The translations under genes were made by a program, and so were the position numbers. Shown piece by piece: positions 3,229 to 7,899 of a stretch of DNA of 21,237 bases. The stretch spans positions 1 to 21,237 of the forward strand of contig CAKRWX010000010.1 in NCBI GenBank assembly GCA_934418055.1, written 5' to 3'. This DNA comes from an uncultured Lachnospiraceae bacterium. Its GTDB lineage: Bacteria > Bacillota > Clostridia > Lachnospirales > Lachnospiraceae. Under the pieces are notes generated by a model. It did not search any database, was not told the origin of the DNA, and saw nothing but the letters and a program-made list of their open reading frames with translations. Every line of letters begins with the position of its first letter. Position 1 is the first letter of the stretch.

Positions 3229-4349
3229 GAAAAATGAGGGGTTTATGGGTAGCTGCAGCGGTAACAGTTTGTCTGCTTACCGCCTGTGGGAAAAAGGAAG
3301 AGTATGTGGCAGTTCCAGAGAGTAAGGTTACCGTAGAAAAGGATCCGGTCCAGGTGACAACTGCGCCGGAACCGGAGAATGAGGCGGAGCCAGAAACCAT
3401 CGAAGAGCCGGAGGAGAGGATCGCCGTTGACGGCAAGATCAAAAGCTATCTGACCGGGGAAATGGTGGATGTGGCGAAGGCGGACCGCCGTCCAGTGGCT
3501 GTGATGATGAGCAACGACAAGGCGGCCCTTCCTCAGTACGGCATCAACCGGGCCGGTGTGGTCTATGAGGCTCCTGTGGAAGGCGGTATGAACCGCTATA
3601 TGGCGATTTTAGAGGACTACGATGATTTAGACCGGATCGGATCAGTCCGGAGCTGCCGTACCTATTACACGTACTTTGCAAGGGAATTCGATGCCATTTA
3701 CGCGCATTTTGGACAGAGTACCTTTGCCCTTCCTTACCTGGATAACGTGGATAATATCAACGGAATCAAGGAGGGAAGCCAGGCTTTTTACCGCAGCAGC
3801 GATAAGAAAACCCCTCACAATGCCTATACCAGCGCCCAGAAGCTTCAAAAGACCATCGAGAGTCTAGGCTACAGTCAGACGTATGATTCTTCCTATCATG
3901 GACATTTCCGTTTTACGAAAAATGGAGAAGAGGTCCAGTTAGAGAACAGTCTGGAGGCAGAGAAAGTTGTGCCGGGCTATGCGTTAAACAACGCGTATTT
4001 CCAGTATGACGAGCAGGAGGGTCTGTATCACCGCTATCAGTATGGCGGTGTTCACAAGGGATCGGAAGGTCCGATTACCGTGAAAAATATTATTTTTCAG
4101 TACTGCTCCACGGGGCATTATGCCACCACAGAGTATCTGAATATTGACGTTCACACCAGCCAGTACGGCTATTACATCACCAATGGGCGGGCGATTCCGC
4201 TGTCCTGGAAGAAGGATGGTGAGTTTGGTGTGACCCATTATTATAATATGGAGAATGAGGAAATCACCTTAAACCAGGGTAAGACCTGGATCTGTATCAT
4301 TCCAACGGCTGATTTCCCAAAAACGGAGATTCATGGAAAGAACAACTAG
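3225..4349 (+). CDS. DUF3048 (YerB-like) lipoprotein
   Basis: A predicted extracytoplasmic lipoprotein of 374 aa, related to B. subtilis YerB (DUF3048 N- and C-terminal domains). The N-terminus has a basic start, a hydrophobic core and the lipobox LTAC with C21 as the predicted lipidated cysteine. An acidic, Pro/Glu-rich spacer (about 22-65) follows. The DUF3048 core begins with RPVAVMMSNDKAALPQYG (about 89-106) and contains EGGMNRY (119-125) and IGSVRSCR (138-145). The C-terminal DUF3048_C part runs to about residue 370. The family's function is unknown; an envelope role is only inferred from location. The start ATG overlaps the ybeY stop by four bases, and the end overlaps the next gene by 17 bases. 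Confidence 0.9.
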   Translation: MRKMRGLWVAAAVTVCLLTACGKKEEYVAVPESKVTVEKDPVQVTTAPEPENEAEPETIEEPEERIAVDGKIKSYLTGEMVDVAKADRRPVAVMMSNDKAALPQYGINRAGVVYEAPVEGGMNRYMAILEDYDDLDRIGSVRSCRTYYTYFAREFDAIYAHFGQSTFALPYLDNVDNINGIKEGSQAFYRSSDKKTPHNAYTSAQKLQKTIESLGYSQTYDSSYHGHFRFTKNGEEVQLENSLEAEKVVPGYALNNAYFQYDEQEGLYHRYQYGGVHKGSEGPITVKNIIFQYCSTGHYATTEYLNIDVHTSQYGYYITNGRAIPLSWKKDGEFGVTHYYNMENEEITLNQGKTWICIIPTADFPKTEIHGKNN

Positions 4350-6057
4350 AACAGGACGCAGCAGAAGTAAATACAAAAGAGCAGAAGGAACAGCAGCAGG
4401 AACTGGGGCTCCAGAGAAGAAGGCAGGTTCTAACTTTATTATCCAGGGAAGTATCCTGGCTATCGCTGGAATCATTGTCCGGCTGATCGGCATGTTATAC
4501 CGCATCCCTCTGGCCAATTACATTGGAGATGAGGGAAATGGTTATTACAGTGCGGCTTATAACATTTATTCGATTATGCTGATTCTTTCTTCCTACAGCC
4601 TTCCGGTGGCGGTTTCCAAGATGGTTTCCGCCCGCCTGGCCAGGGGCCAGTACCGGAACGCAAGAAAGATTCTGCGGGCGGCTTTATTTTACGCAACCAT
4701 TGTAGGCGGTGTGGGCTTCTGTGCTTTATGGTTTGGCTCCGGATTCTTTGCGGAGCATGTGATCAAGATGCCTTACAGTGCTTACGCCTTAAAAGTACTG
4801 GCACCGACGGTCTGGATTATGGCGTATCTGGGAGTCCTCAGAGGATTTTTCCAGGGTCATTCCACCATGGTGCCTACGGCAGTTTCCCAGATTTTTGAGC
4901 AGATCGTCAATGCGGTGATCAGTCTTCTGGCGGCGAAGAGCCTTTTTGACCTGGGAGTGAAATCCAATCTGGTTTACGGCTCCACCGAGTATTCCTATGC
5001 GTTTGGTGCAGCAGGAGGTGCTCTTGGTACGGGAGCCGGAGCTTTGACCGCGTTGATTTTATTTGTTGGCCTGTATCTGATGTACCGCCCGAAAATGAAA
5101 CGGCGGATCCGCAAGGAACAGGGAACATCGGCGGAAAGCTACGGCATGATCACCAGCACTTTGTTTTTGACAGTTGTGCCGATCATTGTCAGCAGCAGCC
5201 TTTATAATAGCAGCACTGTCATTGACAATGTGCTGTTTGGCCAGATCATGACCGGACTGGGAGAGGCAAAGCAGATTGCGTCCCAGTGGGGCATTTATTC
5301 TGGTAAATACCATCTGTTATTTAATATCCCGGTGGCAGTGGCCAATTCTCTGTCCTCTTCCCTGATCCCGGCATTGTCCAGGGCTGTGGCAGAGAAGGAC
5401 CGGAAACAGACCTTAAACCGGATTGCCAGCGCCATCCGCTTCTCGATGATCATTGCCATTCCATCGGCAGTGGGACTGGCAGTGCTGGCGGCACCAATCA
5501 GCAATCTGTTATTTCCTGGAAGAGACAATGCAGATCTGATCAAAATGACCTGTTACGGTTCTTCCGCGGTCGTGGTTTATTCCCTGTCAACGGTGACCAA
5601 TGCCGTGTTGCAGGGTATTAACCGGATGAAGACACCGATCCGCAACGCAGGCATTTCCCTGGTGCTTCATACGGTGATCCTGTTTGTGATGCTGCGATAC
5701 TTGCACATGGGCATCTATGGCGTCCTTTACGCCAATATTTTATTTGCCCTGTTTATCTGCATTTTAAATGCCAGATCCATTGCCAGATTTAAGCGTTACC
5801 GCCAGGAAGTGAAGAAGACTTTCCTGATCCCGATGGTGGCGTCTGCAGTCATGGGCGCGGCGGCATTTGGCGTATACCGGGTCGCTTACCGCGTTTTTGG
5901 CAATCTGATCAGCACTGGAATTTCGGTTCTGGTGGCAGTAGCGGTCTACTTCGTTTTACTGATCCTGTTGAAAGGCATTGACGCCCAGGAAATGAGAAGT
6001 ATGCCTGGTGGAACCAGACTGTTGGGCGTGGCAAGAAAACTGCATCTGATGAAATAG
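4333..6057 (+). CDS. SpoVB/YtgP/MurJ-type polysaccharide or lipid II flippase
   Basis: A polytopic membrane protein of 574 aa in the MVF/polysaccharide-transporter branch of the MOP superfamily (SpoVB, YtgP, MurJ). Roughly fourteen hydrophobic segments can be counted from about residue 34 onward. Family features near the N-terminus are VRLIGMLYRIPLANYIGDEGNGYYSAAYNIY-type residues (about 49-79) and the run LPVAVSKMVSARLARGQ (90-106). Related proteins move lipid-linked peptidoglycan or glycan precursors across the membrane. Whether this copy serves vegetative wall, spore cortex or capsule cannot be told. A basic, alanine/glycine-rich cytosolic extension (residues 1-33) precedes the first helix. 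The ATG at 4333 lies inside the end of the lipoprotein gene (17-base overlap) with GGAG four bases upstream, which implies coupling. Confidence 0.85.
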   Translation: MERTTRTGRSRSKYKRAEGTAAGTGAPEKKAGSNFIIQGSILAIAGIIVRLIGMLYRIPLANYIGDEGNGYYSAAYNIYSIMLILSSYSLPVAVSKMVSARLARGQYRNARKILRAALFYATIVGGVGFCALWFGSGFFAEHVIKMPYSAYALKVLAPTVWIMAYLGVLRGFFQGHSTMVPTAVSQIFEQIVNAVISLLAAKSLFDLGVKSNLVYGSTEYSYAFGAAGGALGTGAGALTALILFVGLYLMYRPKMKRRIRKEQGTSAESYGMITSTLFLTVVPIIVSSSLYNSSTVIDNVLFGQIMTGLGEAKQIASQWGIYSGKYHLLFNIPVAVANSLSSSLIPALSRAVAEKDRKQTLNRIASAIRFSMIIAIPSAVGLAVLAAPISNLLFPGRDNADLIKMTCYGSSAVVVYSLSTVTNAVLQGINRMKTPIRNAGISLVLHTVILFVMLRYLHMGIYGVLYANILFALFICILNARSIARFKRYRQEVKKTFLIPMVASAVMGAAAFGVYRVAYRVFGNLISTGISVLVAVAVYFVLLILLKGIDAQEMRSMPGGTRLLGVARKLHLMK

Positions 6058-6096
6058 ACAGGATGGAACTGTTACAAATAAGTTTAAAATAAACCG

Positions 6097-6159
6097 GATA
6101 AGCAGATACTATGCTCATAAGGAGGAAAAACTTATGAGAAAATATGGTATCTGCTTATT
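6097..6159 (+). promoter_or_regulatory. Nested hairpin enclosing ribosome binding site and start codon
   Basis: Two perfect inverted repeats are nested around the start of the small gene at 6134. The outer arms are ATAAGCAGATAC (6098-6109) and GTATCTGCTTAT (6147-6158), 12 of 12 complementary, extendable by a G-U pair (6097/6159). The inner arms are CTCATAAG (6114-6121) and CTTATGAG (6131-6138), 8 of 8, with a nine-base loop. The ribosome binding site AAGGAGG (6119-6125) is partly in the inner arm and loop, and the ATG (6134-6136) lies inside the inner right arm. A read-through transcript should hide the start. GATACTAT (6105-6112) in the outer left arm resembles a sporulation-type -10 element, but no clear -35 is seen. 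The repeats are certain; the regulatory role is inferred. Confidence 0.7.
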
Positions 6160-6517
6160 GTTATTTGTTGTGTTGGCTGTTGCCTGTTTTTCTGTTGGCT
6201 ACGCAGTGACCAGGACAGAGTCGGTCCGGGAGAGTGCGGTTCCGGCCACCGTATATGAGACGGAGACCGTGGATGAACGGCCTGTGGCAGAAGCGGGAGC
6301 TGGTGTTCAGGCGGAAGGAACCGCGGAGGAGCATTACTGCCTGGTGGCGGAGTCAGGGTATCTGATGGTGTATTCCAGGGAGAGGAACGCCCTATATCTG
6401 GACACCCACATTCCGCTGACAGAATTCCCGGATACAGAAAAAGAGAGGCTTTTGGATGGAATCTGGTTTTCTTCCATGGTGGAAGTGTTTCAATATCTGG
6501 AATCTTACACCAGTTAA
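6134..6517 (+). CDS. Small exported/membrane-anchored protein with BofC C-terminal-like region
   Basis: A 127-aa protein with an N-terminal hydrophobic segment (about residues 5-24: signal anchor or uncleaved signal). A low-complexity, Ala/Glu/Val-rich spacer (25-65) and a compact C-terminal region (66-127) follow. The C-terminal region has YCLVAESGYLMVYSRE, THIPLTEFP, LLDGIWF and a final LESYTS. This pattern matches my memory of the C-terminal domain of BofC, the forespore inhibitor of SpoIVB signalling in the sigma-K checkpoint: strand, then I-x-L, then LL-x-GI-x-F, then a closing aromatic/Ser end. The start ATG has AAGGAGG (6119-6125) eight bases upstream but sits within a nested inverted repeat. 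The gene follows the SpoVB-like gene by 76 bases. Assignment to BofC rests on motif resemblance only. It is much shorter than B. subtilis BofC (about 170 aa) and lacks its N-terminal domain. Confidence 0.6.
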   Translation: MRKYGICLLLFVVLAVACFSVGYAVTRTESVRESAVPATVYETETVDERPVAEAGAGVQAEGTAEEHYCLVAESGYLMVYSRERNALYLDTHIPLTEFPDTEKERLLDGIWFSSMVEVFQYLESYTS

Positions 6518-6540
6518 GAAATTGTTACGAAAAAATGAAC

Positions 6541-6569
6541 TTGCATTGCGGGGGCAAAGCCGATACAAT
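6541..6569 (+). promoter_or_regulatory. Sigma-A-like promoter of the flavoprotein genes
   Basis: TTGCAT (6541-6546) and TACAAT (6564-6569) are separated by exactly 17 bases, close to the TTGACA/TATAAT consensus. Transcription would start near 6576, about 28 bases before the ATG at 6604. It would give the two flavoprotein genes their own transcription unit. Seen by eye, not measured. Confidence 0.55.
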
Positions 6570-6603
6570 GGAGAACGAAAAAAGCAGGAGAAGAGGAAAT
6601 CGA

Positions 6604-7899
6604 ATGAAAAAGAAGGTGTGGATCATCGGAGGCGGTGCCTCTGGAATGATGGCGGCTATCACGGCGGCAAAAGCGGGAGCGGATGTGACCATTGCGGAAC
6701 ATATGGACCGGGTGGGCAAGAAGATCCTTTCTACAGGAAATGGCAGATGCAATCTGACCAATTTATACCAGGATGCCAGATGCTACCGTTCCAGCCAGCC
6801 GGATTTCCCAGGACAGGTATTAAAACAGTTTCCAGTGGATGAGACCATCGCCTTCTTTGAAGATCTGGGAATTGTGATGAAGGACCGAAATGGATATCTG
6901 TATCCCAATTCTGACCAGGCGGTTTCGGTGCTGGACGTTCTGCGGGATGAGGTGGAGCGAAGAAAGATCCAGGTGCATTTAAATTGCCAGATAAAGGAGA
7001 TCCGAAAGAAAAAAGACGGTTTTCAGATTGTAACTGACCAGGGGGTAAAAGAGGCGGACGCTGTGGTGCTGGCAGCAGGCTCCAAAGCGGCTCCGGTCAC
7101 TGGTTCCGATGGCAGCGGATACCGCCTGGCGGAGAGTCTGGGCCATTCGGTGATCACGCCGCTTCCGGCGCTGGTACAGCTTCGGTGTGCGGAAAAGCAT
7201 TACAAGCAGCTTTCTGGGATTCGGACCGATGGGAAGGTCGAGATCTACAGTGCGGAGAAAAACGGCCCGTGGAAATTGGAGGCAGAAGACCGGGGAGAAG
7301 TGCAGCTGACGGACTATGGCATTTCCGGTATCCCCGTATTCCAGGTGAGCCGTTACGCGGCGGTGGCCTTACATAATAAGAAGAACGTAAAAGCAGTCAT
7401 TGATTTTTTTCCTCAATTAAATATAGAAGAAACGAAAACCATGATGGCAGAACGGAAGAGAAAACTTGGCGGACGCAGTGCCGAAGGATTTCTCACCGGA
7501 ATGCTAAATAAAAAACTGGCTTTGGCGTTATTGAAGCTGGCGGGAATTGCGGCGGCAGAGCCCATGGAAACGGTGGACAAGAAGAGATGGGAACGTCTGA
7601 TCCAGGTGATCAAGCAGTACGAGACCGTGGTAATTGCAACGAATCCATATGAAAATGCCCAGATCTGCTGCGGAGGCGTGGATACCAGACAGATCGATCC
7701 GACAACTATGGAGTCGAAGCTGGTAAAAGGGCTTCATTTTGCAGGAGAGATCGTGGATGTGGACGGTATCTGCGGCGGTTATAACCTGCAGTGGGCCTGG
7801 TCCAGCGGGTACGTGGCGGGAAGAAGCTGCGCGGCGGAAAGCCGCAAAACGGAGGAAAAACACAATCCAGTGGCAGAGAGAAAGAAAGGAAAACGATAA
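6604..7899 (+). CDS. HI0933/BaiN-type NAD(P)/FAD-dependent oxidoreductase
   Basis: A cytosolic flavoprotein of the HI0933/YhiN (BaiN-like) family, 431 aa. The Rossmann dinucleotide motif GGGASG is at residues 9-14, followed by the basic/Glu strand end at about 31-32. The signature GKKILSTGNGRCNLTN runs over residues 38-53. A C-terminal FAD-binding element, HFAGEIVDVDGICGGYNLQWAWSSG-like, lies at about 378-402. Substrates of most members are unknown; BaiN has been linked to bile-acid reduction in gut clostridia, but that must not be assumed here. The ATG at 6604 was chosen because AGAGG (6592-6596) lies seven bases upstream and the GGGASG motif then sits in the usual place; an in-frame ATG at 6535 lies upstream of the promoter. 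The C-terminus ends in a basic, lysine-rich tail. Confidence 0.9.
   Translation: MKKKVWIIGGGASGMMAAITAAKAGADVTIAEHMDRVGKKILSTGNGRCNLTNLYQDARCYRSSQPDFPGQVLKQFPVDETIAFFEDLGIVMKDRNGYLYPNSDQAVSVLDVLRDEVERRKIQVHLNCQIKEIRKKKDGFQIVTDQGVKEADAVVLAAGSKAAPVTGSDGSGYRLAESLGHSVITPLPALVQLRCAEKHYKQLSGIRTDGKVEIYSAEKNGPWKLEAEDRGEVQLTDYGISGIPVFQVSRYAAVALHNKKNVKAVIDFFPQLNIEETKTMMAERKRKLGGRSAEGFLTGMLNKKLALALLKLAGIAAAEPMETVDKKRWERLIQVIKQYETVVIATNPYENAQICCGGVDTRQIDPTTMESKLVKGLHFAGEIVDVDGICGGYNLQWAWSSGYVAGRSCAAESRKTEEKHNPVAERKKGKR

Follow-up and report, generated by a model that had tools for sequence, protein, structure and literature searches.

Gene context and the hairpin at the start codon

The window, i.e. the whole 21,237-nt stretch of contig CAKRWX010000010.1 from an uncultured Lachnospiraceae bacterium that was analysed here, carries a co-directional cluster of yqfC-yqfD-phoH-ybeY-DUF3048-SpoVB-like genes, and 76 nt behind the end of the last one (6057) lies the ATG of a gene for a 127-aa protein. 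The product of the SpoVB-like gene, a flippase, reached 232.6 bits against TIGR02900 spore_V_B, under the cut-off of 372.3, and neither terminator-like nor sigma-70-type sites were found within 5900-6700, the interval scanned. Among 81 near loci (the best 80 of 131 relatives found by a scan, plus the window), a SpoVB-like gene stands at most 250 nt upstream in 48, and in 12 DUF3048 is adjacent and the SpoVB-like gene gave no match. The yqfC-yqfD genes are described as being under sigma-E (mother-cell) control in C. difficile (PMC3789822), their B. subtilis counterparts are likewise described as sigma-E genes, and B. subtilis BofC is counted as a forespore component of the sigma-K activation pathway (PMC12251134), so that read-through from the cluster, if it occurs, could put the downstream message into the wrong cell type.

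A search with the 127-aa protein at E ≤ 1e-3 found 51 homologues, of which 35 were aligned together with the window protein (alignment A1). Of these 36 sequences, 26 matched BofC_C (PF08955) at E ≤ 1, the window protein not being among them, with a best value of 5.5e-4; the window protein itself matched no Pfam or NCBIfam family, Pfam giving nothing even at E 10, and so does not reach the curated BofC_C cut-off. In its AlphaFold model (mean pLDDT 72.3), residues 3-30 form an N-terminal helix and confidence is good for the C-terminal part, beginning near residue 68; Foldseek returned no PDB fold match at E ≤ 0.001, and comparison with PDB sequences likewise gave nothing meaningful. The protein may resemble BofC in the weak C-terminal similarity of its homologues and in the modelled helix, and differs from it in its short form and in the missing family and fold matches; since the BofC label is weak, we call it BofC-like and not BofC. 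The A1 profile found the gene in 188 of the 397 family genomes drawn, and in 17 of 17 genomes of one genus. In one 8.4-kb locus (L019), the gene start is present twice (4001 and 6596), by local duplication or as an assembly artefact. Beyond the family, a BofC_C search covered 398 genomes and found 156, followed up by reading 30 loci without statistics; by eye, longer BofC genes there (L228, L234, L232 and L233) also have hairpins over the Shine-Dalgarno sequence (SD), whose left arm in L228 and L234 holds GTATA, which could be a −35 box.

The features of the locus are as follows.

4333..6057, + strand: SpoVB/MATE-like flippase gene, co-directional upstream (Polysacc_synt, 6.9e-22; TIGR02900)
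6082..6086, + strand: predicted −35 box GTTTA of a forespore (sigma-G/F-type) promoter; G-N-N-T-A in relatives
6088..6093, + strand: basal stem extension (6 bp), left side; pairs with 6164-6169 in the fold
6097..6113, + strand: outer stem, left arm (anti-start arm), from the fold; conserved with compensatory changes
6105..6111, + strand: predicted −10 box GATACTA, inside the left arm; conserved in relatives
6114..6121, + strand: inner stem, left arm, from fold and repeat finder; in the window alone (1 of 128 loci)
6117..6119, + strand: predicted start of the short mRNA, ~7 nt past the −10 box, placed from the −10 position
6119..6125, + strand: Shine-Dalgarno AAGGAGG, from the sequence
6122..6130, + strand: apical loop, 9 nt, from the fold
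6131..6138, + strand: inner stem, right arm, including the ATG, from fold and repeat finder
6134..6136, + strand: ATG of the BofC-like gene, from the sequence
6134..6517, + strand: BofC-like gene, 127 aa, N-terminal helix, C-terminal domain weakly BofC_C-like in homologues
6143..6159, + strand: outer stem, right arm, within the coding sequence (codons 4-9), from the fold and the compensatory changes
6164..6169, + strand: basal stem extension (6 bp), right side; pairs with 6088-6093 in the fold

RNA folding placed 6080-6175 in one stem-loop made up of an outer and an inner stem, the loop and the basal extension, with a minimum free energy of −33.1 kcal/mol versus −13.41 kcal/mol (sd 2.6) for 200 dinucleotide shuffles of the same segment (z = −7.57), none of which folded as low. 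An inverted-repeat finder returned arms at 6098-6112/6144-6158 (15 nt, 93%) and 6114-6121/6131-6138 (8/8), in agreement with the fold and with an earlier note on this DNA, which had placed two nested inverted repeats at 6097..6159. In the fold, the outer stem (6097-6113/6143-6159) comprises 17 pairs, G-U among them, and in a long RNA the structure surrounds the SD and start region, as in locks of the T4 gene e or sigG type discussed below. Both nested stems exist in the window; of the two, the outer one is conserved and the perfect 8-nt inner stem over the ATG is not, being an individual trait of the window. A further 15-nt inverted repeat (80% complementary) lies at 6236-6250/6310-6324 inside the BofC-like coding sequence.

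Pairing of the upstream arm with the initiation region across the family

The pairing was evaluated as the duplex energy between the promoter segment (pre-start) and the initiation region, relative to shuffles of the promoter segment, in the near loci and in a distant set of 52 loci added from the family's more distant genomes. Energies attained by ≤1% of shuffles were determined in 103 of 128 distinct loci (61 of 76 near ones, window included, and 42 of 52 distant ones), and by ≤5% in 115, leaving 25 and 13 loci that miss the respective level; relatedness inflates these locus counts. Compared with this, the starts of neighbouring genes, taken with random offsets, yielded only 2 and 16 of 143 at the two levels. 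Controls from the same promoter finder, from which short cysteine-rich and SASP-like frames had been dropped, gave 7 of 204 at ≤1%; this set retains two target-gene entries, namely the second copy in L019 (at 6596), which is one of the seven, and an alternative start in L034, which is not significant. An earlier promoter-finder control (20 of 230 at ≤1%) was set aside, as it was judged to be contaminated by DUF1540 targets. The promoter arm overlaps the −10 box in all 103 significant loci. The earlier note had held that such pairing would hardly arise by chance and that its loss in relatives keeping the gene would speak against a function; the first expectation was borne out, and the second outcome did not occur, most loci with the gene (103 of 128) having retained a pairing.

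A covariation alignment was made of 40 loci chosen from 54 distinct same-register ones, near-duplicates and long-loop loci being omitted; another register was best in 21 of 81 loci. On these 40 sequences, a 25-pair stem had 80.2% of its cells paired and 14 pairs with changes on both sides, and its covariation score of 0.257 exceeded those of shuffles (0.177, sd 0.008) and of slid versions (≤0.150), while RNAalifold unaided recovered 9 of the 25 stem pairs. The arrangement is thus conserved in relatives with the compensatory changes that the earlier note had proposed to look for. Phylogenetically independent contrasts at single pairs tended in the right direction among the contrasts listed and were too few for significance.

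It could be argued that the stem is a by-product, i.e. that a conserved protein start (Y-G-I-C) and a conserved −10 box, each kept for its own reasons, have met by historical accident. The −10 box itself fits such an account, because its pairing (277 of 378 cells) hardly exceeds that obtained after swapping the arms between species (271.9, sd 3.5). The excess, however, sits outside the box: the 14 positions ahead of it were paired in 609 of 756 cells versus 548.7 (sd 6.7) after the swap, with kinship uncorrected. Pairing also persists with differing protein starts, as coding-side-only pairing at z ≤ −3 was obtained in 46 of 52 distant loci (and in 55 of 75 near ones, versus 2 of 143 controls), and other genes of the same promoter type are paired as well. 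An accidental meeting of two conserved elements is therefore very unlikely. The coding-side pairing may dictate residues of the membrane helix of the BofC-like protein, a suggestion read from the codons; in-frame NGT-ATY codons occur in 44 of 128 loci versus 3 of 143 control starts.

The geometry of the hairpin varies considerably. In many relatives' folds, the SD and ATG lie in the apical part and the stem takes codons ~3 to 10, and the distance from the −10 box to the ATG ranges from 19 to 127 nt in near loci. In L042 and L041, where this distance is 127 and 93 nt, respectively, the promoter segment still pairs significantly with the start region; L041 also has a large inverted repeat between the −10 box and the ATG. 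In several clades lacking coding-side pairing, judged by eye, there is another hairpin that stands opposite the SD instead of the coding sequence and whose left arm overlaps or adjoins the −10 box, such as CTAACCT with AGGAGGTTAG in L030 and L073, CCTTTAG with CTAAAGG in L017, L022, L034, L039 and L046, and TCCTCC with GGAGGA in L023; the distant L192, L194 and L204 resemble these clades, again by eye. As most of the SD-facing loci miss the 1% level (L030 and L073 reach it), these hairpins are offered as description and not as statistics.

This variability bears on another explanation, raised in the earlier note, that the inverted repeat is a DNA operator, a dyad bound by a transcription factor, with the RNA pairing incidental. 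The left arm does overlap promoter-like sequence, as operators often do, but a dyad-binding protein would need steadier spacing and sequence than the varying −10-to-ATG distance, the switch of arms between coding and SD side (by eye) and the covariation of arm sequences outside the −10 box allow. An operator fits these data poorly and is in our judgement highly improbable.

A promoter-like sequence inside the arm and its predicted RNA

The −35-like GTTTA and the −10-like GATACTA of the window are 18 nt apart, the former lying ahead of the left arm and the latter inside it. At the −10 sites of the near loci, which were picked by motif and context within 170 nt, (G/A/C)ATACTA was found in 69 of 81, the remaining 12 having CATCCTA, AATACTC, GATAATA, GATACTG, GACAATA or GAGAATA, and a G-N-N-T-A box stands 17-18 nt ahead in 76 of 81. 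Of the distant loci, 49 of 52 had a promoter score above the 95% point of shuffled upstream regions, with GTATA (25), GAATA (13), GTTTA (6), GATTA (4) and others as −35 boxes. The sigma-G consensus has a G-N-A-T-A/R-like −35 box and a C-A-T-N-N-T-A-like −10 box spaced by 17-18 nt, and at the sequence level the boxes and spacing found here agree with it, except that the first −10 base in near loci is mostly G or A, not C. The earlier note had seen a sporulation-type −10 box in GATACTAT, an observation that these counts uphold; the eighth base of this octamer is variable and the seventh conserved, which suits sigma-G better than sigma-E/K. In C. difficile, sigma-G promoters are described as having a conserved A downstream of the −10 box (PMC3789822). 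The SASP genes of six near genomes are laid out similarly: the minor SASP (SASP2) has G-N-N-T-A, 17 nt and (C/T)ATACT in 6 of 6, and the main SASP has GTGTA or GAGTA, 17 nt and CATAATA in 5 of 6; SpoVAC, tried as a sigma-G control, had no clear promoter just upstream in the 9 loci tried, probably owing to its position inside an operon.

A putative stage-specific promoter therefore lies over the 5′ arm of the stem. A start ~7 nt after the −10 box would put the 5′ end near 6118 and so remove the outer left arm, and the earlier note's proposition that RNA begun within the left arm would be free of it agrees with this prediction from the −10 position. With the same predicted start, 57 of the 81 near loci would have their SD at most 5 nt behind the 5′ end, so that a start only a few nt farther downstream would damage the SD.

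The consequence for initiation was computed as the energy of opening the 30S footprint (−16 to +15), which in the window is 21.7 kcal/mol for the long RNA versus 9.2 kcal/mol for the short one, where by reading of the sequence the inner stem could retain 5-6 bp. For the 76 distinct near loci, the medians were 14.6 (long) versus 8.9 kcal/mol (short), the difference being at least 6 kcal/mol in 36 of 76, compared with 4.8% of 147 controls, and nil or reversed in 2. Opening the short RNA still costs somewhat more than opening the controls (median 8.9 versus 6.5 kcal/mol). As the SD and ATG alone differ little between the two RNAs in most relatives (median 5.8 versus 4.8 kcal/mol, with a difference of at least 3 in 14 of 81), the argument rests on the whole 30S footprint.

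These computations also bear on an RNA thermometer, the other alternative in the earlier note, or a ligand switch, in which a signal would melt or rearrange the stem. The enclosure of the SD and start region is what such a switch would have. Freeing the window's initiation region, however, takes about 22 kcal/mol, which is much for an RNA thermometer; furthermore, no Rfam family matched the window at the gathering score, loop length and sequence vary in the alignment, and the inconstant distance and placement of the arms suit it poorly, so we give this explanation next to no credence.

We consider it likely that the BofC-like gene is under a translation lock set by where its RNA starts. RNA entering from the upstream cluster would carry the left arm, fold over the initiation region and be translated little or not at all. 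In the forespore, RNA polymerase with sigma-G (or sigma-F) would start ~7 nt past the −10 box within the left arm, producing a short mRNA that has lost the outer left arm, whose SD and early codons would be freer and hence translated. Such a lock would couple translation to the forespore promoter and silence vegetative and mother-cell read-through.

A different role was also weighed: with transcription starting upstream of the left arm, the forespore transcript would itself contain the hairpin, which would dampen or time its translation. B. subtilis offers related cases: a small 5-bp hairpin at the sigG ribosome-binding site is described as dampening translation 2-4 fold (PMC5942855), and a stem over the early codons of cmpA as limiting its translation (preprint PMC13317604). 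Against this role stand the promoter-like boxes before and in the left arm and the failure to find a sigma-70-type site within 5900-6700; moreover, with the arm overlapping the −10 box in all significant loci, RNA from that promoter should be without the arm. We thus regard a hairpin acting on the forespore transcript as unlikely.

Possible upstream read-through, other genes and known locks

If the start-dependent lock serves to silence read-through, its association with an open upstream region is of interest. Loci were classed as open when a co-directional gene lies upstream and a terminator was not found, and as blocked by a terminator or an opposed frame, one further locus being unassigned. 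Pairing at ≤1% occurred in 95 of 108 open versus 8 of 19 blocked loci (Fisher p = 3.5e-5, kinship uncorrected), and in 4 of 15 blocked loci (p = 1.4e-6) when L042, L045, L057 and L078, whose opposed frames with gaps of 0-2 nt were taken for antisense open frames, were left out. L062, L070, L157 and L188 are blocked yet significantly paired, and so is L045 despite a terminator just upstream (judged by eye). L008 and L015 have a strong terminator ahead of the promoter and no significant pairing, and their −10 box is CATCCTA or CATACTA, with C first.

A search of 38 genomes for a promoter plus complementary arm returned 34 hits. Of these, 14 fell at the BofC-like locus, and the other 20 were no excess over the reversed control (18). 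By inspection, 5 of the 20 precede SASP2 or DUF1540 genes, and for this reason both families were then tested by family. In a test of uniform type, pairing was found in 13 of 25 SASP2 loci of distant genomes and 1 of 6 near ones, and in 16 of 29 DUF1540 loci of distant genomes, versus 4 of 29 tested (of 30) plus 0 of 6 near, i.e. 4 of 35, for the main SASP; the gpr control had no promoter score above threshold and pairing in 0 of 8 tested loci (of 9). In 20 of the 29 predicted DUF1540 folds, start codon and −10 box pair with each other, and this box is CATAATA in 11 of the 29. Pairing was unrelated to open read-through for SASP2 (7 of 11 open, 7 of 13 blocked, 1 unassigned), and for DUF1540 the difference (14 of 25 open versus 1 of 4 blocked) was not significant (p = 0.33). 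As single observations, in the SASP2 upstream regions of L319, L321, L320, L310 and L328 the SD is covered by a very strong hairpin whose left arm falls within the promoter, the arms in L319 and L321 being ~16-17 bp long, and in the DUF1540 loci L331, L338, L345 and L353 the SD/start region is paired with a −10 box that reads CATAATA or GATACTA.

The promoter layout suggests that the SASP and DUF1540 genes are forespore genes in these organisms, as SASP genes generally are. Lachnospiraceae forespore promoters might then repeatedly double as anti-start arms, in at least three unrelated genes, their boxes being complementary to the start region of the driven gene, so that only promoter-started RNA would be translatable, as a cheap compartment insurance that evolved more than once. 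We hold this generalization to be an appreciable possibility somewhat short of probable; its standing is lowered by the lack of any excess of the pattern over the reversed control at loci other than the BofC-like one.

The logic of the proposed lock has precedents. For B. subtilis sigG (spoIIIG), it has been proposed that a hairpin of 20+ bp keeps read-through RNA from spoIIGA-sigE untranslated; transcripts begun at the sigG promoter, a target of both sigma-F and sigma-G, cannot fold into this hairpin (PMC5942855). The likeness, drawn from the published description, lies in a locked read-through RNA and an open RNA from the gene's own promoter; unlike there, the arm here includes the −10 box itself and has mainly early codons as its partner, and the arrangement recurs across a family and at some further genes, in a different gene and organism group. 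In phage T4, the early long transcripts of gene e (lysozyme) and I-TevI are described as hiding the SD/AUG, and late promoters situated where the stem's 5′ strand is encoded as giving well-translated RNA, with a 100-fold effect for e (PMC3014915). Here too the long RNA would be locked and RNA from a promoter at the 5′ strand open, although T4 is described as using infection timing and not a cell-type sigma factor. The early codons of the B. subtilis sporulation inhibitor cmpA likewise lie in a translation-limiting stem (preprint PMC13317604); its left arm, however, stands between RBS and ATG inside the transcript with no promoter in the arm, and it depends on 16S rRNA methylation. The earlier note had invoked T4 gene e, and the comparative tests support that logic as probable; it was right on the structure and the promoter-like box as well. 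A literature search through titles and the starts of abstracts, with most subscription journals outside its coverage, found neither this hairpin nor a promoter-arm overlap in Lachnospiraceae. Compared with these systems, the present one stands out by a predicted −10 box that itself lies in the arm, by recurring family-wide at the BofC-like gene and in part at further genes, and by a coding side that may shape the protein.

The usual explanation for compartment-specific expression during sporulation is the place in which each sigma factor is active. In clustered genes with read-through, sigma-factor control would be leaky, and translatability that depends on the RNA start would close this leak without any regulator. 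If the lock operates as proposed, RNA-seq coverage over such genes would not imply protein, and promoter, RNA stem and protein would share the same bases, representing testable overlapping codes kept across a bacterial family.
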